Position numbers and translations under genes: made by a program | The notes under the pieces: model-generated | Seen by the model: only the letters and a program-made list of their open reading frames with translations | The model's database searches: none | Told to the model about the DNA's origin: nothing | Shown here: one piece after another, positions 3,116 through 57,951 of the stretch | Numbering within the stretch: the first letter of the stretch is position 1 | Layout: the number at the start of each line of letters is the position of its first letter | Assembly: GCF_016859285.1 (NCBI RefSeq) | Contig: NC_053418.1 | Coordinates: forward strand, 20,642,829 to 20,706,828 | DNA length: 64,000 bases | Source of the DNA: Xiphias gladius | Lineage: Eukaryota; Chordata; Actinopteri; Istiophoriformes; Xiphiidae | Reading direction: 5' to 3'

Positions 3116-3272
3116 TTCATCATGTAAACAAATGACATACAGTATAGGCTGATTAAAATGATACTGTTTATATCATATATTTTTGAATTGATGTATTTCA
3201 CAATTTATTCCCTAGACAAAAGTTGAAGAGGTCTTGGACATCATCTTGCTTAATGAACATGACAATACTCAC

Positions 3273-4170
3273 CGATGGGTAGCACCAGGAAAAAAGGCAG
3301 CCAGCACAACACAAAGCAGCCAACCACAATGCCCAAGGTCTTGGCAGCTTTCTTCTCACGTGAGAACTTGAGCAGTCGCAGGGCGAAATGTGTGCGGCTG
3401 CGAAGGGCCTCGTCCTCTGATACAGTTGTGTTGCCTCTGTGTATCCTGAGTATCACCTGCTCTGAATCGGACTTCTCTGTCTTGTGGCCCTCCTTCAGGC
3501 CCTGGCTCTCTCTGTGAGCTACCACATAAACCCGACAGTACATAGCCAGTATGATGGCCAGAGGGAGGTAGAAGGAGCCCACAGCAGAGAAGATAGCATA
3601 ACCTGGCTCCTCTGTGATCTTACAGATGGACTCGTCCTCCGGAGCTGGCTCTTTCCAGCCAAACAAAGGTCCGATAGATATAATGATAGACAGCATCCAC
3701 AGCAGCATCACTGCCAGCAGAGCCCTGCGTTTTGTCATTATAGCTGGGTAACGCAGAGGGTAACTAACTCCAATGTAGCGGTCCACAGAGATAACACAGA
3801 GGCTCATGATGGAGGCAGTGCAGCAGAGCACGTCCACAGCTGCCCAAACATTACAAAAGGCCCGTCCAAACACCCAACGATCCAGGATCTCAAAAATGGC
3901 AGAGAAAGGTAGTACAGTGGAGCTCAGCAGCAAATCTGCCACTGCAAGATTAACTATAAAATAATGTGTGACTGTCCGCAGGTGTCGATGACAAACTACT
4001 GAGAGGATTACGAGGATGTTTCCCACAACTCCAAACAGAATGAAGACACCAAGCACCAAGCCCAAAACCACAGCCTTGACCACGTTGAGCTCTGGGACTA
4101 AAACCTGGCTGCAGTTGGAGCAGTTCTGTGTCAGAGGAGCTGGGGTCATATTGTCCAGCACAGGAACCAT
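3273..4170 (-). CDS. adra1a: Alpha-1A-type adrenergic receptor, exon coding N-terminus to TM6 (partial gene)
   Basis: Class A GPCR for adrenaline/noradrenaline, expected to couple to Gq at the plasma membrane. The 299 complete codons hold an extracellular N-terminus with sequons (NMT, NCS), TM1 from about residue 31, NLAVADLL in TM2, the ligand-binding Asp in WAAVDVLCC of TM3, DRY followed by IGVSYPL, an ECL2 cysteine in DESICKI, and CWLPFF in TM6. The loop-3 text KSDSEQV-LRIHR and the SYPLRYP segment match ADRA1A better than ADRA1B or ADRA1D. The first in-frame ATG is at 4170; the longer open frame starts from TTG and has a stop upstream, so I reject it. The exon ends after LPI plus one base at a GTGAGT donor (3272-3271), the family's conserved intron after TM6. 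TM7 and the tail are not in the window. Teleosts have two adra1a copies and I cannot tell which this is. Confidence 0.93.
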
Positions 4171-4248
4171 CTGTTCCAATTCTATGCTGATGCTCGACAC
4201 TGTCCTCTGCAGCAAAGGTAGACTGGAACACGCACCTATTTAAGTTCA
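4171..4248 (-). other. adra1a: 5' UTR part of the adra1a coding exon
   Basis: Minus-strand sequence between a likely splice acceptor and the receptor ATG. Reading leftwards, a pyrimidine-rich TTTTTCTGCTGTAG precedes position 4248, a convincing 3' splice site. The frame of the receptor is closed here by a stop at 4242-4240, so this is untranslated. Inferred by eye; transcript data would settle the boundary. Confidence 0.55.
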
Positions 4249-5470: not shown

Positions 5471-6839
5471 GATTTTGGCCAGGAGAACTCTTTCACCTTG
5501 ACAGATGTGAAGTTAATCCTGTCTGTGCAGATTCCTGACATTTGTAATGTGGATGTGCCTTAACTAAATGTAGATTAGATTAGTTAAGTTCTAGTAAAAG
5601 TAGTGCGGCCATGTTGAGGATTTTCAGATTTTGTTAAGCTGCTTTATTTGAGACTAAATAAAAACTTCATCTCATCGTTGCCCTCTTTTCTACTGAGTCA
5701 GTTTCTTATCTATCTATCTATCTATTCTTGTTCTTTTTCAGCAGCCCCTCAGCCTTCACAACAATGCCAGGGTCAAAAACGCTTAACGCAAAGAAAGACT
5801 GTGCAAAGACAATGGTGACGGCGCAGGCATTATGCAGTCTCCTCAACTCTTTAGCCCCCTCCTCTCCTACGCTGCGTCAAACTGTTAACCACCGGATGAC
5901 CTTCTCCTCTGCGCCCCACAAACCTCTGCTCCACACTGGATGTACAGCTGTTTAACGTGTTTGATTGAGTTTTATGACCCAGGTTGGCTCCTGTGCCGGC
6001 ACGGTGCGGGAAAAACCTGCATACAGCAGCCATCATAAGGCAGCACCTGGGACATTCTTCCACCCACTCAAGTAGAGGATGGAGGTGGGAGGGCTGATGA
6101 CTCTAAGGTAGTTATGAGAGTAAGAGTTACATGTTTATCCACTGGAGCATTGCGGGAGCTCATTATGCCATCAACATTTTGCACTATAGAAAAGATTGAG
6201 TTACCTCAGCTTAAAGTATTAAGTGTCCCCGCTGCATTAAAATTGTTTGTAACTAATTTTAAACATACTGAGTTACAATAAACTGGAGACATTATACTTG
6301 ATGGATTTACTGTTAGACAAGTTCAGTCATATTGACTGGATCCATTCTGTCATGTAAAGTTTAAGTTTTAGATTTATAGTACAGCATTTAGGTGGCAGAC
6401 ATTCACATCAGTGATGGAATTGACATTTGTGGTTCCTCGGCGACTGTATTACAGTAACAGTAAGAGTCTCGGACTTGGAATTGAATTGCTTATGAATCAT
6501 CATGTTTATCTTTTTGTCATTTTTGTCTGAGAAAAATTTGTTGAGACGATAATAAAGCCTTATGTCGTGAGATACATGTTGCGGAGATTTCCAAGGAGCC
6601 TAACAAAACCTAATGTGATTAATTCATTCAGCTCGTACTTTATAAAGATTGAGGCTTGTGATTAAAATTATTAATTTTGAGACAAATGGAAACTGACAAG
6701 CTTATTACATCGGGCTTCTGATAAACAACCTATTTATATCACTAAACTGCAGGATGAGTTTAAAGGGGTGTGGGATTTCAACTGGGATGGATATAGATTC
6801 AGGTGCACTACAGTAATGCACACTGGTTAGGCTCTATCC

Positions 6840-38300: not shown

Positions 38301-41300
38301 GACTTGCACATGTATTCTTTTTTTGTGATCAACTTTACTTTATTTTATTTTGCTCTAGATACATACATCATACACAAAAGAACACATCCAGTACATTAGA
38401 TAGAGTAGCACAAACCCCAGCCCAAAAGAGGCTCAGATCCTTGCATTCCCAGTACATATGCATGTAAGAACCTGTAAGCCCATCTGGGTATAAGTTGCAG
38501 TTTGGAGATGTCAACCATTTAGGGAGATTAGCCATTCCTCTGAGTGAGGTAAGTCCTATGGATATAGTTGCTTTGATTTGCACAGGTATTCTTGTGCCAG
38601 ACAGAATGGCTCAATTAGGTTTTTTTTCCAAAGCATGGTGCTAATGCAATCAATTCTAATTAGATTATTTATAAGACTATTATACCATGTGATCATGAGC
38701 ATGCTATAAACCTGAGACAAAGGAGTTTGCAATTTAGATTAAGGTGATATCATCCAAGGTTATGCTCTGAAAAATAACCTTTAGAAACAAAGTCCTTTTC
38801 TCACTACAGCAAAGAGTTTTTGTGTCAATGTCAATTTGATGACTTCTTAAAATGCACCATGTTTTGTATCTATTGGCTCTAGGTCCCTTAAATCCAGAGT
38901 GAAGATTTTGGTGGATGGAACACTTCTTATCCCTAATCTCATCCCAGAAGATGCTGGCAACTACACCTGTATCCCAACTAATGGGATATTGACCCCACCC
39001 TCTGCATCTGCACATCTGAAAGTGAAACGTAAGGATTTAGTCTGTTACACATCCATTTCCATCAACCCTGCAGGTCAAGGTTGCAGAGGTGGGAGCATTT
39101 CCCAGCATGCCCAGGGCGAGGACGTCTTTAGTTATATCTTCTTCTTTCATCTTAGACCCCGCACGTGTAGGCCGAATGCCCCGGGAAACATACTTGCCTG
39201 CGGGCATGGAGGGGGTCATAGTTTGTCCTGTCCAGGCTGATCCACCTGTGCTGTATGTCAACTGGACCAAAGACGGGAACGATTTAAATCTTGACAAGGT
39301 AGTGGTGGGCCATGGAAATCATGGAGTGGAAATTCTCCCAAAACTGCACGGGTACCTTGGAATCACTGTGTGTATTTTTTCCTCCTTTTATCTGTCCAGT
39401 TCCCAGGTTGGATGGTGAACTCCGAGGGCTCAGTTTTTATAACAACAGCCAATGACAATGCTGTTGGCATGTATACCTGTACTGCCTATAACAGTTATGG
39501 CACCATGGGCCAGTCTGAACCTACACAAGTCATTCTGCAGGTAAGGCTGGGCTTCTGTCTCTGTCTTCAGTTCAGAGAAAACTTCGTGCACAGTTGTACA
39601 TGAATAGACGTAACCAGGCTCCTTACCTCCTTCAGGACCCACCATCAATCCAAGTGCCTCCTCGGCTTGAGTATCTCCAGGAGGTGGGCAGAGAGTTGAT
39701 CATCCCTTGTGAAGCCAGTGGAGACCCCACTCCAAACATAACATGGAGCAAGGTACAGGAGGAGATTTTCAACTCTAGAGAGATGTGTTGCCTTATTTAT
39801 CCCCTATTTAACTTGTTGTGGCTGTCTTGCCTGATAGATTGGCCCAACGCCTCGCTCTCCGTACACAGTGTTGGCTAATGGCTCCCTCCTGCTGCAGCCA
39901 CTCAGTAAAGATCACCAGGGGGGCTGGGAGTGCCTGGCCACTAATCGTGTAGCAACTGTCAGTGCAGGCACTGTGGTCATGGTGCTGGGTGAGTGGGCTG
40001 ACCTTATTTCTGCGTAAACTGATATGTTGATATATGACACTTAACCTGAATGTATTCATGTGTGTTGTCAACAGTTAAAACTTACAGAGGTGTTTTTCTG
40101 TTCCGTAGGCACCAGTCCTCATGTTGTATCCTCAGTATCTGTCACCACCGAGATGAACCAGGCCAATGTGTCCTGGGTGCCTGGCTTTGATGGTGGATAC
40201 ACCCAGAAGTTCACAGTGTGGTCAGTAACATATAATACACAGTATGACACAGTTCTCAGCTGCCACCAACCATCCCAACTGTTTTAATTCAGTCTCAATT
40301 TTGGCTGTTTGAAATTTTTCCAGGGTCAAGCAGGCATCCAGGGGGAAACATGAATGGGCGTCTTTGCCTGTTCCCACATCCAAAAACTACCTACTGGTGA
40401 CCGGGCTACTTGCTGGCACCAGCTATCAGTTCAGTGTCCTTCCTCAGAATAAACTTGGCTCTGGACCTTTCAGTGAAATTGTTTCTGTGCAAACTCAAGG
40501 TTTGTGCAAGTAAACTTTATGTTTCAGTTTCCCTCACTCTCTGTAATGCTGTTTTGCTTTAAGTATCTATCAGTATGAACTAATATCGAGTCATATCATC
40601 AGCTGTGCCAACAGAAGCACCTACAGCTTTCACCACTCTCCCAATCCTGGATCCTCCAATACTCCTGTCAGCCAACCGGACTGGACAAGGAGTTTTCCTC
40701 CAGTGGTCGCCTCCAGAGGCTCCATCCTCTCCACTGACTGGCTATGTGCTACAGGCCCGCAGGGATCAGGGCGAGTGGGTCATCCTCAGCAGCAACATCA
40801 GTGCCAATCAGAGTCAACTACTCGTACGAGGACTGCTAAGGGTAATGATCAGTTTATTTCTTACTCAGCATCTGTACTTTCAAAAGATCAATTGGTGTGG
40901 CCTCTGTGTTTCTTGCTTTCACAACCTCGATGCATGTAGTTTAAATAGCTATTGTGCCAACAAAAAAAATTGTGTTATATCAAATGGATGTTATGATTTA
41001 TGTTATGATGATGAAAATGTTTGACAAAGTAACTTTCATCAGAAGCATTTTAGTTTATCTTTTCATTCTGAGGAGTTAATCAAACCCGGATCTTTCTTTC
41101 TCTCAGGACTCCAGTTATGATTTGAGGCTAATGTCTCGCAGCAACAAAGTACTCAGTGAACCCAGTGAGTCTGTCAATGTATCAACCATAGGTAAGTGGA
41201 TTTTTATAAATAACCACGAGCATTACATTGCATATTAAGTCAACATGAGTTTTGGCATACGTATATTATTGCATATATAAAAAATTAGCGTTGGTTTTTA

Positions 41301-44300
41301 GCAATGGAATTTGCAACCACCATTATTGACTCTTGTCTGATGACAGGGATGGAAATTTATCCACTACGCCCAAGTTTCTTGGAGGTCATCCCTGAGCCCC
41401 TGTTGGCTGGTGTGCTAGGAGGAGTGTGCTTCCTGTTCGTGGCCATCATCCTTTCATTAGTGACAGCTTGCTATATGAGTCACAGGAGACAGCGTCGGCG
41501 CAGAAAGAGAAGACAAGGTAAAACATCAGAACTCAAGGCACAAAAATTGTAATTGTTTAAACTGTGTTGGTGTGCAGAAAGCGCAATTGCTTATTTCCGA
41601 GTTTATACTAAATACACTTTGTCATGATTAGACAATTTCAGCTGTGCTATTGTTTTGTTATTTTAATCGTTTCTTCAACTGTTATTAGATCTGCCATCTG
41701 CCTTCCAGAAAAACTCATCTCCAGAGTAAGTCTTCTTACCATTATACCTCTATATTTTCAACATTTCTGTTCCTTCATCTATAACGTGATTTTAACAGTT
41801 CATGTACAATATCTATTACTCACTGTATTTGTTCCTGTATTTAAAAAAATATTCAGGCTTTAATGTTTTTTACTTAAAGTATCATTATTATAGCCATTGG
41901 TAGACTGTGGTTTAACATTTAAAAGCAACATTTCTTCATGCTACCAGGTGTGTGACTCCATAACTTAAGTCGATCATATATTTTTATTATCTAACCTGTT
42001 GATGACATTTTGACTACACTAAGAATGAAATGAAACTATTTTAAAAACATTAAAATAGTTTAGGCTTCATTACAATCTCTGCAATCCTTGATGTAGTATG
42101 ATTGTGCAGTGAGTTATAATTTGCACCTTTAATCATTTTTTGTTAGAATCTACAGTACTGTAAAGTTGTTTTAAGCCTTTTTTTTCTTGGCTACATCTTT
42201 CTCAGAGCTCACTCGCCTCCTCGCAGCCCCGACAGTGTCCTAAAGATAAAGCTGTGTCCACCACTTCCATTCTTCCCAAACTCCTCCTCCTCACAGTCTG
42301 ATCGGTCCTCCTTTGATAAAGGCAGCCGTGGAGAATACCACGACCAGCGGAAACAACTCTTGTCCAACTCATCTCCACCACCGCATTACACACTCTTTGA
42401 GAGTCATCTGGGGTCTCAGGCCCCCTCACCAACTGCTCTGGAGTCCATTTCCAGAGGGCCAGATGGGCGCTTCATTGTCCAACCATTGCCAGAGGGTTCC
42501 AGTCCCTCAAATAAGAAGAACATAAAGAAGGACGTCCTGCAAAGTAATGGTGGGGCAGGTGGCTCAGGGAGCAACCGGATGTCATTCAGGGACTCTCCAA
42601 AGTCAAGCAATTTGAGCTCAGAGAAGGACGAGAGGAAGGATTCCCCTCTCACTGTGGACGTCCCAGAGCTGAGCAGGCCTCCTTCCTCTCCGGGTAGAGT
42701 ACGGGCCATGGCTAGAAACTTCTCCCGTCATGGCTGCTTTTACTCTGATGATGAACAAGGCTCAGAGGCCCTACTCGAAAGAGCCAGCTTCTATTCAGAC
42801 AACAGTGAGAAAAAACCTGGTGATTCTTTCAGGAGACATCGCATGCTGGGCCACAGTGAAGATCTGTTCCCCAGTTTGGGCAGGAGAACAAAGCTTCTGG
42901 ATAGAGATAGAGACAGGCCTAACCATTCAGGCTACCAACCTATGGAAAGTCAGCTGACTAATAACAGCACCCTGGTCTTACAACTAGACAGTGAGCTGGA
43001 GAGAGATAGCATTAACAAGTGTGTCCAACTGGCAAAGGAGAGGGAAGAAATGGAGAGGGAGCTAGAGAGCTATACAGCCAATCAGAGAAGCCGTGGTCAT
43101 GGAAGAGAGGAGCGAGAGTCTAATACAACACAGAACCCTCAAAGGGATGCGCCTAAGTCAGAGGAAGAGCCAGTATGGAAGCCACAAGATGTTACTATCA
43201 GACAGAAACACAGGCCCTCAGGTCAGACAAGTCGGGTATCTGACTATCGGAGGGCGTGTTACTTTGGGAACACCAGCAGTCCCATGGACCGGCTCCGTAC
43301 GTCTCGCATACAGTGGGACATTAGCCCTGTTACCTCTGTCACCAGCCTCATTCCTGTACAGAGCACCTGGGAGACCACATCACCCAGGTCAAAGCATCCT
43401 CGCACATGTAGGGAAACGTCAGAAGACTCTCTTGCTCCTGATTCATCACGCTCACCAATCACGCAGAACACCTCCCTCCCCATGCTCTCCCCTAATGTCA
43501 CCTCAAAAAGCCCACTTGGTCTGTGTGTAGAAACAGCAGACAGAGCCAGGCCATTGAGTCCTCAGGGTGGGCCAGATATATGCAGGAAGTCCGTGACTGA
43601 GCAGGGCTTACGGGAAAGGACTCAAGACGGAGGTGTTGCCTCAAGGTCCAGGCATTCGTATGCTTATGCAGGAACTCAGCCCTGGGATTCAGCTGCCAGA
43701 AGTCCTTCAGTCGACAGTGAGAAGCCTGAAAGTTCAGCTTCTGCACCGTATACTCACCCTCAGAGAATGGCAGACGTCATAGCCACAAGGGATCCCAGTC
43801 CCTCAAGTTATTCTACCTTACCCTATGAACATCATGATATAGGGGCAAAGGCCAAAGACAGTGAGACTCACGGCCAGGATGATCGCCGGAGTACGGGGTT
43901 TTACTCAGAGCTAGAAAGAGAGGGTGTCCGAGCACGCTCCAGGAGGAGTGACAAATGTCTTTTCTCTGATAGTCCCAGCCCAATTTCAATACTGACTCTT
44001 GTAGAGGAGGTCGAGAGTGATCAATCCCAATTTTCTGTGCCCAGAATGTCAGAGTCTTTCAAGGCCAAGCCGGCAGCCCCATCTCCAAAAATGTCCCCAA
44101 TGCAGACAAGTGCAATTCTTGAGTACTTGAGTCTTCCAGGTTTCATTGAAATGAGTGTGGATGAGCCCGTGGAAGAAGCTGAAGTCACAGACACTGCTGG
44201 ACCAAGTTCAGTACTAAAGCCAGAAAAATCTCTGGTGGCTAAGCCTGATGTAGTTCCTAAAAACTGGCAGGTTCATGTGCAAGAAAACCAGGCCACGGAC

Positions 44301-46331
44301 TTGAACCAAAAGGTGGTTTGCTTTGAACAAACTCATTCTGTGGGTGCTGCAGAGCCCTTTGATGCTTGTAAAAAACAAGGCTATAAACGCTCCCTCAATG
44401 TGGAAGCTAGAGATTCTTCACTTAGAGTAAGATTTCCAGATGAGACAAGACCATCATTACCTGGTCCAGAGAAAAGTAGCAAGCAGCTCTATGATGAGAA
44501 AACACAAATTCATCTCTCGAATAAAAGCACAGGCAGACCTGAATCCAGACTTGGATCCAGGTCAGCTCACAACTTGTTCAGTGCAGCTAAAGGCATGGCA
44601 GATATAGTGTCAAAACACTCCCAGAGTTTTGTAGACAGTAGTGAGTCTCTATCGGAGCAATCCCAAAGACAAGCTTCTCAGGGCAGCAGGACTAATAACA
44701 TTGCGTCACGGATATGTCAAGCCCCTGTGCCATTTCTAAAGAAATCCTTAAGTATAGGCCCTTGTAGGACGCTCTCAGGCATGGGACAGCCTCGTCCTTT
44801 CCTAAAGAAATCCATCAGTTTAGGCTCACAGAGGTGGGAGCACTTTGAGAACCCAAGGAAATATATTTCTGAGAAGTGTTACTGGGACGAGTTCCCAAAC
44901 CCGGATGTCAGCGTGAAGTCGTACAGTTTGGGCCGTACTCCATCTTCCCTTCCCAGGCCAGGCCCCTCCTGGAGGGAGTATGTCCCATTCAGACGCCCCA
45001 GCATGGGGAGCTTAGAGAGGTCTCATCACGCACAAAGATCTTTTGCCAGTCCTTCCTACCTCACTCCTTCTATGTACCCACCGAGACAAACCTCTGTCTC
45101 CCCAATGCTGGAACCCTCTGATCCACGACGACAAGCCAGTGTTTTCCCTGAGCCCTCCAGATGGTCTCCCTCTTATCAAGAAACTCTGAGGTCTGCCCAG
45201 CATAAATATGTCCCCATGCCCTCCTCCATTCCTGTGCCCCAGTACCAACCCTGGCCAGGTTCCAGAGGGGAAAGCATGAGACCCATGGACCCCAGGAGGG
45301 GCCCTCCGAGGTCCTACCTGCCCAGGGGCATCAGCTGGCCATCCCCTTATTACGCCCCTTTCTCACCCAGGGAGGGAGAGAGTTATAGACAGCCAGACAG
45401 GATGATGGGGAGGGGAGGGGAGACTGAGATCCGGGAGGTAAGAGAGATCAGGGAGGGAGGGAGGGCAAGTTATGCCAGTCAGAGCAGTGGTAGGGGTAGC
45501 GCTGGTCTCTTCCGACATTCCCTCTCCATCACTCCCACACTACTCAGCTCCCCCGAAACCACAGAGGAGAACGAGCGGCACAGAGCTGAGATGGAGCTGC
45601 CTGAGAGGAGAGCGAAAAGGTGAAACGCCACCACACCTCGACAATAACCACCAACATTTTGGAGTGTCCTCTTGGCAGAGGGATTCATTCATGTTGCCAA
45701 ACTAACATTAATTTAGTTGTTTCTGTTTTCTCCTTTGTGATAACTGTTATATGACCGTTTTGTTTATCTCATTAGAAGGAACACATCAGTAGATGAGAGT
45801 TATGAGTGGGACTCTGCTGATGCCTGCGTGGACTCAGAGGTCCTGGACGCCACAAGGTTAGATCAGTCACAAATGGGCTCTCGGAGAGGAAGGGGGGAGC
45901 TCAGATATGATCAACCTGGTGGCCTCCAGGACCAACAACAGAAAGGTGATACTTTTATGTTTTTTACAATCTCGTGTGTGATGTTTTTGATGTTGCATGC
46001 GTCATTATGAGTTTAATGCTTGATGTGATGGTGCTGCATGTGTTCATCCTGTGCCCTTGTGCTGTGATTATTGTGAGCTTTTCCCATGACGTGCCCATCC
46101 ATGCATTTCCTCTCCCTGATGCCCTCCCCAGGCCCATCTCCCTCAGTCAGCTTGCCAGTTTCCAACCCACCTGGCTGCCAGTTCAGCCGCTCCCTAAGTG
46201 AGGCGCGCTTCAACGCTCTCCGCCAGGAGTACCAAGAGTACAGGCGGGCTCAGGAATCCATCTGTTCCCGTGAGCCCTGTCTCACCCCTGGCCACGATTC
46301 AGACTCTGACTCCAACTCCGCACTGCTCTAG
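26825..46331 (+). CDS. igsf9: IGSF9 / protein turtle homologue, complete, 20 coding exons
   Basis: Single-pass neuronal adhesion protein of the Turtle/Dasm1 family, involved in dendrite growth and synapse organisation. Exons: 26825-26885, 28936-29142, 35980-36126, 37129-37280, 37478-37595, 38003-38144, 38883-39028, 39156-39298, 39400-39540, 39636-39752, 39838-39988, 40109-40220, 40324-40499, 40603-40841, 41107-41191, 41347-41517, 41689-41725, 42206-45619, 45776-45945, 46132-46331; all phases agree, giving about 2,042 residues. Signal peptide 1-21; Ig domains about 25-138, 139-228, 229-324, 325-419, 420-508, each with both cysteines; FN3 domains 509-604 and about 615-712; TM about 732-756 followed by RRQRRRRKRRQ. 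The tail keeps family landmarks: RGPDGRF, YLSLPGF, SQSSGRGSA, RRNTSVDESYEWDS and a final NSALL. It is much longer than human IGSF9 (1,179) because of one 3,414-base exon. The a/b copy is not assigned. Confidence 0.95.
26886..28935 (+). other. igsf9: igsf9 intron after the signal-peptide exon
   Basis: No coding content recognised. A short (GAT)n tract sits near 27394-27413. Confidence 0.75.
35280..35322 (+). repeat. (TG)n followed by a run of 17 G
   Basis: TG units to 35305, then uninterrupted G from 35306 to 35322. Confidence 0.92.
35917..35979 (+). promoter_or_regulatory. igsf9: Extended polypyrimidine tract and 3' splice site of igsf9 exon 35980-36126
   Basis: A (CT)n tract followed by CTTTCCTCTTTGCCG and nine C before AG. 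Almost unbroken pyrimidines for 60 bases make this the strongest-looking acceptor in the gene, following its largest coding-region intron. Confidence 0.7.
38350..38590 (-). mobile_element. Degenerate L1-like LINE 3' fragment
   Basis: In an igsf9 intron (38145-38882). The minus-strand frame includes LTGSYMHMYWECKDLSLFW, which resembles the C-terminal end of fish L1-type ORF2 (a GT-x-x-HMFW-x-C-x-x-x-x-x-FW pattern). Only about 70 codons remain. Recognition is by pattern only. Confidence 0.5.
42033..42061. repeat. AT-rich 11-bp inverted repeat
   Basis: AAACTATTTTA and TAAAATAGTTT around a 7-base loop, in the igsf9 intron before the giant tail exon. Probably chance in AT-rich DNA. Confidence 0.5.
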
Positions 46332-50235: not shown

Positions 50236-53200
50236 TTACTTTGTTGACATGCGCATGACGTGTTTGACCATATTTCCGATACCATCAAATATATAGTGAT
50301 AGTGATACTCTGTTTCCCACATGAAGGAAGGGGTGCTGACCACTTTGTTCTGCTCATCCACATAGGCTTCGTAAAAAGGAAAAGGTTAAGGTCAAAGCTG
50401 GAGTAATTTCAAAACAAAAATAATGACAAAATGAACATAAATCTATTCAGATTTTGTCCAAAATAATTTAGAGATTTTTGAGAGGATATATATGGCTCAC
50501 GGACATTGTGGCGTGCACCCATGCTCTTTACAGCCTGCACCATGTTTGTATGAGGCCAGTTCCCCCAGCGAGTGTTTTCGTCCCGCTCATAGCCCATGGT
50601 CACCTCGATGCTGGGCAACAAACGGCAGGCCAGCACAGGAGCCATGCTGGCCAGTCTAAAAACAGGAGCAGACTGTGAGCCGAGGCTTTTATCAAGTCAA
50701 GATTTAGAGGCAAGAGCGATCAGGGTGTGAGAATAATTGCCTTACCAGTATCCAGACAGGATGGATTCAAAGCCTGAAAAAGAAAAGCTCTCCCACTATA
50801 AAGCACTGAGGAAGAAGTGTGACGCTCAGTCTTCTCAGTGTGCACATGTAAAACTACTATTAATGACCAAAAGATGAATATGAGCCAAGATTACTGACTG
50901 TCAGCTGTTATGATCACCAATTGTCAATAAATAAAAGCATGGGACTACATCTGATGTAACAGCATGTTATTTAAAGCCCCCATGCACACACCTACAGTAT
51001 GGTCCACCCACACAGGTGTTTTCACCTCATCTACCTGACTGGACCTCTTCTCAGGATTGTGTTGGAGTGTGCTGATATCGCTCTCACTCCTTCTGTTATT
51101 TCTAGTGGATACTTGACAGTAGAAACAAAAACCGGGAACATGGAAAGAGAGTGAAGGGGAGACACGCAGCCAAGGTCTCAAACTGAACCAGGCATGTGCC
51201 GCCCTGTAAGGAGATGCAGTTTGGTGACCTCAGATCATTCTCAGAATAGCTCCTCCCAACTTGAACCTGAGCAGAAATATAATTGGATAAGTGGAAGCAC
51301 CCGTGTGGGTGTGATGTGCCGCTAAAGAAATTCAAGTGCTTTTAATGCCTATGCTTGGTTTTTTGTTGATGATTTCACCGTATAACAGGAAAAGGAAAAA
51401 CACAGATGTGACTAATAACATTTCAAAAAGGGCTCCGTTTGTCTCCAAAATCCAAAGTAAGGCAAGATTCTCAGTGCATAACTGAGTAGTCAGGCTTATA
51501 TAATGCTTGTAAGGGGAATTTACCCAGACTTTCAAGGTAATGTACCAGTCTGAAAATCACAGCCCACTTACAGTGTAGCTATGAGTCATGATCTGCCAGG
51601 ACGGCTTCAGTGAAGCTCTGGATGGTTTCCATGCAGTGCAGCGAGAACAACGCTACCTAAAGTGTACGATACTAGTGCCCACGAAGAATGATAGAAAGAA
51701 TGGAAAAAGAGAGTGATATTTGGCTGTTACAGTAACAGACCTGGTCATAATATCAGTCAGATAGTCATCTGTGGATTCAATAAGTTCAACTGTTAATCAT
51801 ATGAAAAATATCCTACTTTTATTATTTTTTTTTTTTAATCAGAGCGAGCAACCACTGAGTATCTTGAAGAAATAGAAATTTTAAAAACAGTATTGACTTC
51901 TGTTGACAGCGTATGCAGAGGTCTGCTGAGGTTGAAAGTCAGTACAGTCTGTGATAATGTCATTTTAATTGTCTCCCCGAAGAACTTCCCAGGCACTGAG
52001 CATCTCCCCCCGCTGGACTCCATCAATCTACACAGTGATATCTGCCTCTAAAGCTCTGTAAGCCACCCTACCTCAGTGCTGGCTGTTGCAAAGTGAATTA
52101 CAGCTCCTCAAACCAGATCTGAAATGTGGCCCTTCCAACTCCATGAAAATGAATTAAAGCGGAGCAGGCCTCTGTGAAGCCTCTGTGATTGCTTTGAGAG
52201 AGACGGTCTGACTTTAGACTTCTACACTGTTTGTTTTGTCGACAGATCAATTTAACAGATTTCAACAGAAGGGAACAATGGAGGGGGGGTGTATCTGAAA
52301 GCAGAGAGGCATCTGTCTTAAACAGCAACATGTGAATCCCAGTGATAATGATACTGACTCCTACATTGAACAGCAACGCCCACTTTGCACATCTTTTTAA
52401 GTGTCATTGTTTTCAATAATTTTTTCATTGTGTTTTCATTTTTGATCAAAATATTTTCAACTGCTCAAACTATTTATAGGCATTAATGGCAATAGGAAAG
52501 GATTACTGGTATTATCCTTTAAACGATGGCTGGGTCAAGGTCAGATAAACCCTACGTTGTCATGTCGACAGCTGCTTCATCCTCTCCTTCCTCCTCAGCC
52601 TCAAACTCTCCTCTTAAATTCCTGTAATCCTGCATCTCCTGTCATCTAAGACCGGCCATTCGTGGTCTGGCCACCAGGTGTCCCCTCATCTGACCCTGTC
52701 ACCTGTCTGCAAGGCCTCGACACCCCGAACAGTCCCCGTGGGCCAGTGTAGTAGCCAAAGGATCAGTTGCTTTCTACCAGATCACTTACTCTATGTAGCC
52801 TCAGTATTGGAGCCTTCTTAATGTCCCACCTGCTTTAGCCCTGTGGATTAGTTTACGTTGTCTCAGGGCCTTCATGTTGCCCACTTTACGCCGTCCTCTT
52901 TAGAGTGTAAAGACTGATTTTACTGCAGCGCCTCTTCCTACTGTGTCTGCTGTGATCAGTGGGAGACAAAGTGGAGACTTTCGCCGAACAGCCTCTGAAA
53001 TGGTGCACAATCTTGGAGGAGAAAGTCAAACAGTTTCTCAAAAAGTTCATAAAGCACGTTTTTACAAATTCACTGACATAATTAGTATTAAAGAAAAAAC
53101 TGAGCCTTTCTTTAACTTTAATTTCTTTCCTAGCTTTATTTCAGTTAACTAATGCAGTATTTTATTGAATTTTCAGACTTTTTTTGCCTATTTGTGTGAA

Positions 53201-54743
53201 TATTTTATTTCACATCTTGTGAATGTTTTCACAAATGTACCTTAGCCCATATTTTGTAGTTTTAGTATACTATTTACTATGTGTAAGCAAAAGGATTTTG
53301 AGAAGCTTTACACTTTGTTTACAGGAATATGCCATAACTATTGGCATTATCATTTATGGTTGTGGTATATGTGGTAAAAGTAAAACTTAGTTTCCGGGAA
53401 ACACTGTACCGACCATGTTAAACCAAACAAAATTCAGATGATATAACAGGCCAAACTATGAATACAAATGTTAATACTCATGTTTTATGCAAAACGTAAA
53501 TATAGATCTTCCTTTTTTTTCTGTTCTGTTCTATAAAAGCTCAGTATTCATTGTATGCCTTTCTACATTCACTCCAATGTCCCAATTCCATTACAGGGAT
53601 TGTTCACATCTCACATTTATCTAGTCTAATGTAATCTGATTTGAAGTGTGGTGTGAATTAAGTGCCACAGTGACACTCCCTTAATACTCGAACCTCTTGA
53701 TCATACACAAGTAGAGTTCCACAGTATTGCTCCTTCAGCACTGATGGATTGAAGAGGGACCAGATGATACATACCCAATAGGCTTGCGTGAACGGTGGAA
53801 ATCTTTAAGCACCCTTTCCACATCATTATGCAGCTTGCAGTCTTTGCCATCCTTCACAAAGGAGGATCTAAAGAGTTGAGAGATGTATGTTACTATTAGT
53901 GCTCCTTCTTTATCATACCAGCTTGTATTGTGTCTCATTTTACTCTATTTTACACAACACAGCCTCACAGGAATGACTTCAATTTTCATTGTTCCTCACA
54001 GACTCTTGATGATGCCGTGGCCTCCAGGAAAGATGACGGCATCAAAGCTGTTGACGTCCAGTTTGGACAGGTCCTGCATTTGCATCATTCCCTGTCCGTG
54101 ACTGAAGCGAGCCGACTCCACCAGCATGTTCCTGTGTAACGGCCGGAAATAATCACAAATAGGAACTTGTGGAATTAGTCAGGTCAGGGGAGTAACATCC
54201 GAAGTTAAGTAAATCACTGGGCCCTTCTATGACTCTGATCCATCTGATAGTGCATCAGTACTTCCTAACAAGCCTACCGGTTCTCGCCAGAGGCAGGTTG
54301 CTTTCTCATGTGGTCCATCACATGCATCTGCTGCTGATTTGGAGCAAACATCTTGAAGCGAGCACCGTTACGGCTGAGGTGGTACATGGTGCTGAAGACA
54401 AGAGATGTGAATTACCATCTCTGCATGATGATATGTTAATGCCAAATTCCTGTCCTGAGCCATACTCACTACACTCCCTCATGGACATCAGTCCCATCCC
54501 ACCAGCCACATCCTGAGAAAACCTGGAATACATTTTGATTCACAAATCACAATAATGCCCAAACTAATATTTCAGCCTACCTTTTTTTTTTTTTTGCCCG
54601 ATGTTTTATTGATTTCTTTCACTTACCACTGCAACATTGGTATTTCCCCAGTTGCCATAGTCACCGTGGTGAACAGAGCAGGCAGGCTGGCGAAAAAGAA
54701 CAGCCAGCGTTTGTTTTGACAGCAAAGTCCTGGTTGCCAGCAT
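50236..54743 (-). CDS. ES1/GATD3-like protein, probably mitochondrial, complete, seven exons
   Basis: DJ-1/PfpI-superfamily protein close to ES1 (GATD3, formerly C21orf33); the family's biochemical role is not well defined. Coding exons, reading leftwards: 54743-54627, 54522-54470, 54391-54278, 54131-54000, 53867-53775, 50655-50490, 50370-50236. Together they give 269 residues with every phase in agreement. Residues 1-27 look like a mitochondrial presequence (MLATRTLLSKQTLAVLFRQ). Then follow NVAVVFSGCGWWDGTD (family: SGCGVYDGTE), QMHVMDH, ESARF, DAVIFPGGHG, KDGKDCKLHNDVERVLKDFH, RKPIG-LASMAPVLA, and a tail ending GIGNMVKHVMRMSTK. The last intron is read as U12-type AT-AC (see findings); a GT-AG reading would lose five residues that the family has. 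The nucleophile elbow is GLAS where ES1 has GLCC. The intron between exons 5 and 6 is 3.1 kb. A divergent paralogue of es1 is my best reading. Confidence 0.88.
50371..50489 (-). other. U12-type (AT-AC) intron of the ES1-like gene
   Basis: On the minus strand the intron begins ATATCCTCT (consensus ATATCCTTT) at 50489 and ends TTTTTAC at 50371. ACCTTAACC (50384-50392) matches the U12 branch-site consensus TCCTTAAC, with the branch adenosine about 15 bases from the 3' end. The intron is 119 bases, phase 0. It joins REPY to EAYVDEQ, giving the same spacing as human GATD3 (KEVTEAHVDQ). Confidence 0.82.
50656..53774 (-). other. Long intron of the ES1-like gene
   Basis: Opens with GTATGT after KPIG and closes with TTTTTAG before LASM. 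No exon or repeat family was recognised inside. Confidence 0.8.

Positions 54744-56602: not shown

Positions 56603-57951
<1,349 letters not shown>

Follow-up and report, generated by a model that had tools for sequence, protein, structure and literature searches.

A predicted U12-type AT-AC intron in an ES1/ElbB-family gene of Xiphias gladius

The closest described counterparts of the intron reported here are the U12-type AT-AC introns of vertebrates. The published excerpts we drew on count 662 U12-type introns in zebrafish (PMC9501576), put the AT-AC share of this class in zebrafish at about 22% (PMC7367187) and give the proportion of human minor introns with conservation in zebrafish as 91% (PMC10639083). 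Consensus sequences are tabulated as RTATCCTT for the 5' splice site and TCCTTRAY for the branch site (table in PMC10853781). These two elements are given as the defining features of U12-type introns, which are described as having no distinct polypyrimidine tract and an optimal distance of 11-13 nt from branch site to 3' end (both in the excerpt of PMC3584512). Phase 0 is reported to be under-represented (PMC7367187, in part). A second related arrangement is the U12/U2 twintron, as in Drosophila prospero and human PRMT1. The locus studied here resembles these twintrons in carrying an in-frame GT-AG pair around an AT-AC pair, but its enclosing pair is a predicted one and has a weak donor.

The gene in question belongs to a family whose zebrafish member ES1 is described, in the excerpt of PMC4772128, as a mitochondrial enlarging factor of cones. 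Our literature search on C21orf33/GATD3 found no U12-type intron or minor-spliceosome link, and a broader gene-name search gave none among the matches listed. We analyzed a stretch of 64,000 nt from X. gladius (the window), which corresponds to C19:20642829-20706828 in a 690.8-Mb genome. We predict with high confidence that intron 6 of an ES1/ElbB-family gene, at positions 50489-50371 of its minus strand, is a spliceosomal AT-AC intron of the U12 type. Like its vertebrate counterparts, this intron has AT-AC ends, an RTATCC-type 5' site and a CCTTRAC branch sequence near the 3' end, and it is the single such intron among GT-AG neighbours.

An ES1/ElbB-family gene with seven coding exons

The gene runs along the minus strand of the window, with coding exons as follows.

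54627..54743, minus strand: coding exon 1, with the start codon, 117 nt
54470..54522, minus strand: coding exon 2, 53 nt
54278..54391, minus strand: coding exon 3, 114 nt
54000..54131, minus strand: coding exon 4, 132 nt
53775..53867, minus strand: coding exon 5, 93 nt
50490..50655, minus strand: coding exon 6, ending ...NVREPY, 166 nt
50236..50370, minus strand: coding exon 7, starting EAYVDEQ, 135 nt including the stop codon

Joined together, the seven exons encode an uninterrupted protein of 269 aa, and all six junctions keep the frame. Introns 1-5 have GT-AG ends. The product scored 203.1 bits against the NCBIfam ElbB model NF008747, which has a cut-off of 180, and the ES1-like identity proposed in the earlier note is borne out by this score. 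A Pfam scan of the product returned 0 families at 0.001. Four matches were found in a PDB search, all named ElbB/SCRP-27A or ES1-family, with the alignment covering approximately residues 36-263. Three of them (5lir, 1oy1 and 1vhq) cross the exon 6/7 junction without a gap; the alignment to 3l3b ends before the junction. The gene shares with the ES1/GATD3/ElbB (SCRP-27A) family a pass in the ElbB equivalog model and alignment to solved ElbB structures. We also considered an additional small exon at 50746-50773 and rejected it, as the direct join of exon 5 to 50655 gives KPIGLASMAPVL, which aligns gap-free with KPLGMCCISPVL of a paralogue on C23 (described below). The gene itself was the sole ES1-like match inside the window, and a search for a tandem copy in the 90 kb around the window (L082-L090) gave nothing better than E 0.87.

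The cysteine of the GxxCIAP motif is replaced by Ser173 in the window's product (GLASMAP, exon 6, 50655-50490). This residue sets the gene apart from the relatives compared: cysteine occupies the equivalent position in 77/77 bacterial ElbB relatives and in both fish paralogues. Other near-invariant ElbB positions are likewise changed. Judged by these substitutions, the protein may perhaps have lost catalytic activity.

Other open frames are present in the window. We take the translation of 3250-4239 (minus strand) to be an alpha-1 adrenergic-type receptor by its look; on the same grounds, 38851-46330 (plus strand) presumably encodes an IGSF9-like protein and 56603-57085 (minus strand) a TMEM127-like protein.

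Signals and placement of the sixth intron

The candidate intron and its signals are listed below; matches are counted against the tabulated consensus sequences.

50371..50489, minus strand: intron 6, candidate U12-type AT-AC intron, 119 nt, phase 0
50481..50489, minus strand: U12-type 5' splice site ATATCCTCT, first 8 bases 7/8 to RTATCCTT
50385..50392, minus strand: U12-type branch sequence ACCTTAAC, 7/8 to TCCTTRAY
50371..50372, minus strand: 3' terminal AC, the intron ending 15 nt past the second branch A

The earlier note had described a motif at the 5' end, a second about 15 bases before the 3' end and a terminal AC on the minus strand, and all are present there: ATATCCTCT at 50489-50481, ACCTTAACC at 50392-50384 and AC at 50372-50371; the core CCTTAAC occupies 50391-50385. 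Its statement that all three match the U12-type consensus holds for the AC end. The 5' site and the branch site are each one base off the tabulated sequences: ATATCCTC has a C at +8, and ACCTTAAC has an A in place of the first T. Removing 50489-50371 joins exons 6 and 7 in the open 269-aa frame and yields NVREPY-EAYVDEQ, the splice product that had been predicted. Retention of the intron introduces an in-frame stop, which we counted in favor of an intron. Several features differ from those of vertebrate U12-type AT-AC introns, and we counted them against the reading. In addition to the C at +8, the distance between the second branch A and the end of the intron is 15 nt, slightly long relative to the quoted optimum of 11-13 nt. 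Pyrimidines make up 14 of the last 15 bases, so the 3' end is pyrimidine-rich where the excerpted description has no distinct tract. The intron is in phase 0, the phase reported as under-represented. Removal of intron 6, unlike that of these counterparts, is a prediction from DNA sequence.

The motifs by themselves are not rare and are not decisive. The combination of ATATCC, CCTTRAC within 300 nt and AC is expected 0.47 times per sequence sampled from the window's dinucleotide frequencies, and it was present in 36 of 100 such samples. When the three motifs were allowed within 2000 nt, the window contained 4 instances compared with 3.23 expected. In a stretch as long as the window, chance alone would produce such a loose trio, a point that we counted against the reading. 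Fixed spacing gives a different picture. Among 127,762 frames of 119 nt on both strands of the window, one combined an ATATCC[CT] start, CCTTRAC in place and an AC end, and this frame is intron 6; the product of the three motif rates at this spacing is 9e-9. The case rests on the position of the motifs at a junction favoured by homology, not on the motifs themselves.

We evaluated the junction by protein comparison. Around the intron 6 site we enumerated 66 in-frame, stop-free pairings of GT, GC or AT donors with AG or AC acceptors. Compared with the C23 paralogue, the AT-AC pair scored best of the 66 (516), followed by a GT-AC pair (507); the best GT-AG pair was 50500-50367 (495). Bacterial relatives served as a second reference. 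A contig search with the ES1-like protein alone found no relative; a contig profile search with alignment A1 gave 209, of which 80 were kept and fetched. Three with reading frames of 33-34 aa were left out, leaving 77 proteins. With an HMM of these proteins the AT-AC pair was narrowly best of the 66 (221.0), ahead of an AT-AC pair without a U12 donor (220.5) and the GT-AG pair 50518-50367 (220.0); 50500-50367 scored 213.1. We counted this narrow margin against our reading. It is small, we think, owing to an insert that precedes the junction in the fish proteins and is absent from the profile. By alignment, the MGARH..TPSFM segment of the AT-AC product is exactly as long as in 77/77 bacterial proteins, and that of the 50500-50367 product is 5 residues shorter than in all 77. 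The earlier note had expected the length of human GATD3, and the corresponding comparisons with C23 and the bacterial proteins point the same way. A strict regular expression for this spacing proved too strict, matching 11 of the 77 proteins (all with spacing 9), and the alignment was used instead. A looser expression matched 75 of the 77, all with the spacing of the AT-AC product; L020 and L079 were unmatched.

Genes for the minor-spliceosome snRNAs were found above cut-off in the same genome: U12 (125 bits), U6atac (131.4 bits), U11 (104.3 bits) and U4atac (98.6 bits). A second, weaker U6atac match fell below the cut-off. None of 14 control genomes was matched, which says little, as the presence of vertebrates among the controls is not given. 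An Rfam scan of the window gave 0 matches at gathering scores. The GUAAGG of the genome's U12 pairs 6/6 with CCUU(A)AC and 6/7 if the A just before it is included; a branch site with the complete consensus would reach 8/8. U11 pairs 5/6 with positions +4..+9 of intron 6, one of these pairs being G-U, and +8 is unpaired, a point that we counted against the reading. U6atac forms at most 6/7 pairs with +4..+10, and the two top-listed registers differ from the consensus register, making this a weak test.

We base the U12-type assignment on the sequence and spacing of the motifs, on the open frame and the fit of the protein, and on snRNA genes in the same genome. The reading in the earlier note is supported by the splice and branch motifs, the protein fit, the unbroken exon of the C23 paralogue and the U11, U12, U4atac and U6atac genes. 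The order of snRNP steps in minor splicing is textbook knowledge. If intron 6 follows it, the U11/U12 di-snRNP would bind AUAUCCUCU as the 5' site and CCUUAAC as the branch site, and U6atac would then replace U11. A branch A would attack the 5' AU, and the exons would be joined at ...REPY|EAYVDEQ to give the 269-residue protein. We infer splicing by this route.

Competing accounts of the junction

The junction contains a second pair of splice sites:

50367..50500, minus strand: decoy GT-AG pair enclosing the AT-AC intron, 134 nt, in frame, removes 5 residues

The earlier note had warned of this false donor, and both its GTGAGC (50500-50495) and its AAG (50369-50367) are indeed present, in frame and with a product 5 residues shorter. 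Its suggestion that automatic annotation may go wrong here is plausible. One account uses both pairs. In such a twintron, the minor spliceosome would remove the AT-AC intron from most transcripts, and the enclosing 50500-50367 would be removed by the major spliceosome in some transcripts, giving the shorter protein. The enclosing pair is in frame, and a pyrimidine-rich stretch precedes its AAG. Eighteen twintrons are reported in human, mostly nested (PMC3564746, in part). According to the excerpt of PMC8280824, 92% of A-type minor introns were more often retained, or more often spliced at alternative major sites, after CENATAC depletion in HeLa cells. Against a twintron stand the length of the shorter product, 5 residues under 77/77 relatives, and the strength of the decoy donor. 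With a rounded donor matrix, TCC|GTGAGC scored 2.53 and the gene's five GT donors scored 3.42-9.61, placing the decoy below all of them and close to the weakest. The decoy might still be used at low frequency, or upon failure of the minor spliceosome. We consider a twintron unlikely; it overlaps with our preferred reading, as the AT-AC intron is used in both. A working twintron would let minor-spliceosome activity set the relative amounts of two ES1-like proteins, one of them five residues shorter within a fixed-length segment, and in a bolder form the minor intron would have been gained after the split from the C16 and C23 paralogues. We regard this extension as a distinctly long shot.

The remaining accounts dispense with the minor spliceosome or with the relevance of the signals. 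An ordinary U2-type GT-AG intron could be the only one used, either 50500-50367 or 50518-50367, with the AT-AC motifs arising by chance. The frame is kept by both pairs, the bacterial profile gives 50518-50367 a score of 220.0 compared with 221.0, and chance would be expected to place a weaker set of the motifs somewhere in the window. However, the C23 comparison ranks 50500-50367 (495) and 50518-50367 (480) below the AT-AC pair (516), and the donors score 2.53 and 0.31, respectively, with the rounded matrix. The 50500-50367 product is 5 residues short of 77/77 relatives, the 50518-50367 product lacks the MGARH stretch, and the U12 motifs sit at the homology-favoured junction in one of 127,762 frames. 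This account is extremely improbable. The gene might also be a decaying copy whose splice signals are irrelevant. The long branch of its product (1.36) and the loss of a cysteine found in 77/77 bacterial relatives would fit such decay, but seven open exons, six frame-keeping junctions, a 269-aa product and an ElbB score above the cut-off argue for an intact gene, and we think decay very improbable. Major-spliceosome AT-AC introns tend to begin with ATAAG. Intron 6 instead begins with ATATCC, as U12-type introns do, and has a near-consensus U12 branch site in place. Splicing of the AT-AC intron by the major spliceosome is therefore scarcely credible, even though AT-AC introns make up 0.02% of zebrafish U2-type introns (excerpt of PMC7367187).

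Paralogues and the history of the intron

We searched the X. gladius genome with the protein and obtained 14 matches in three places: the window gene, C23:18227839-18228914 and C16:19747617-19750025. The search scored the best candidates only, giving at least three ES1-family places. The C23 paralogue was modeled with four coding exons and GT-AG introns. Its last exon (L105:4726-4918) reads MGCKHVNKDVEEAHVDVKN and is unbroken where the window gene has its AT-AC intron, with equal residue spacing. The C16 paralogue has three exons, and its two inner junctions and last donor coincide with the three introns of C23. tblastn did not find its last exon in L106:5026-8001, which may reflect a pseudogene, a distant exon or an assembly fault. 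By eye, the sequence at L106 ~6080-6150 looks like a scrambled remnant.

Paralogue intron positions were compared by eye on an alignment. The window gene (54743-50236) differs from its paralogues in this respect, with 0 of 6 intron positions in common with C23 or C16; the nearest pair lies about 8 residues apart. The C23 (L105:3831-4918) and C16 (L106:2546-5025) copies have three intron positions in common with each other, an odd history for one vertebrate family. In a tree, the three fish proteins form one group apart from the 77 bacterial proteins (99/93), and the window protein sits on a long branch of 1.36. As the paralogues share none of the window gene's intron positions, the AT-AC intron may, judged from these sequences, either be ancient, with a loss in the other lineage, or have arrived later.

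Intron 6 may already be recorded in intron databases (U12DB, IAOD, MIDB). The predicted intron would fix the 3' end of the ES1-like gene model, where a gene finder restricted to GT-AG introns could err by five residues. With it, a family of mitochondrial proteins would acquire a short minor intron of the AT-AC kind, and the mismatch of intron positions with two paralogues would offer a small test of how minor introns persist, disappear or arise.
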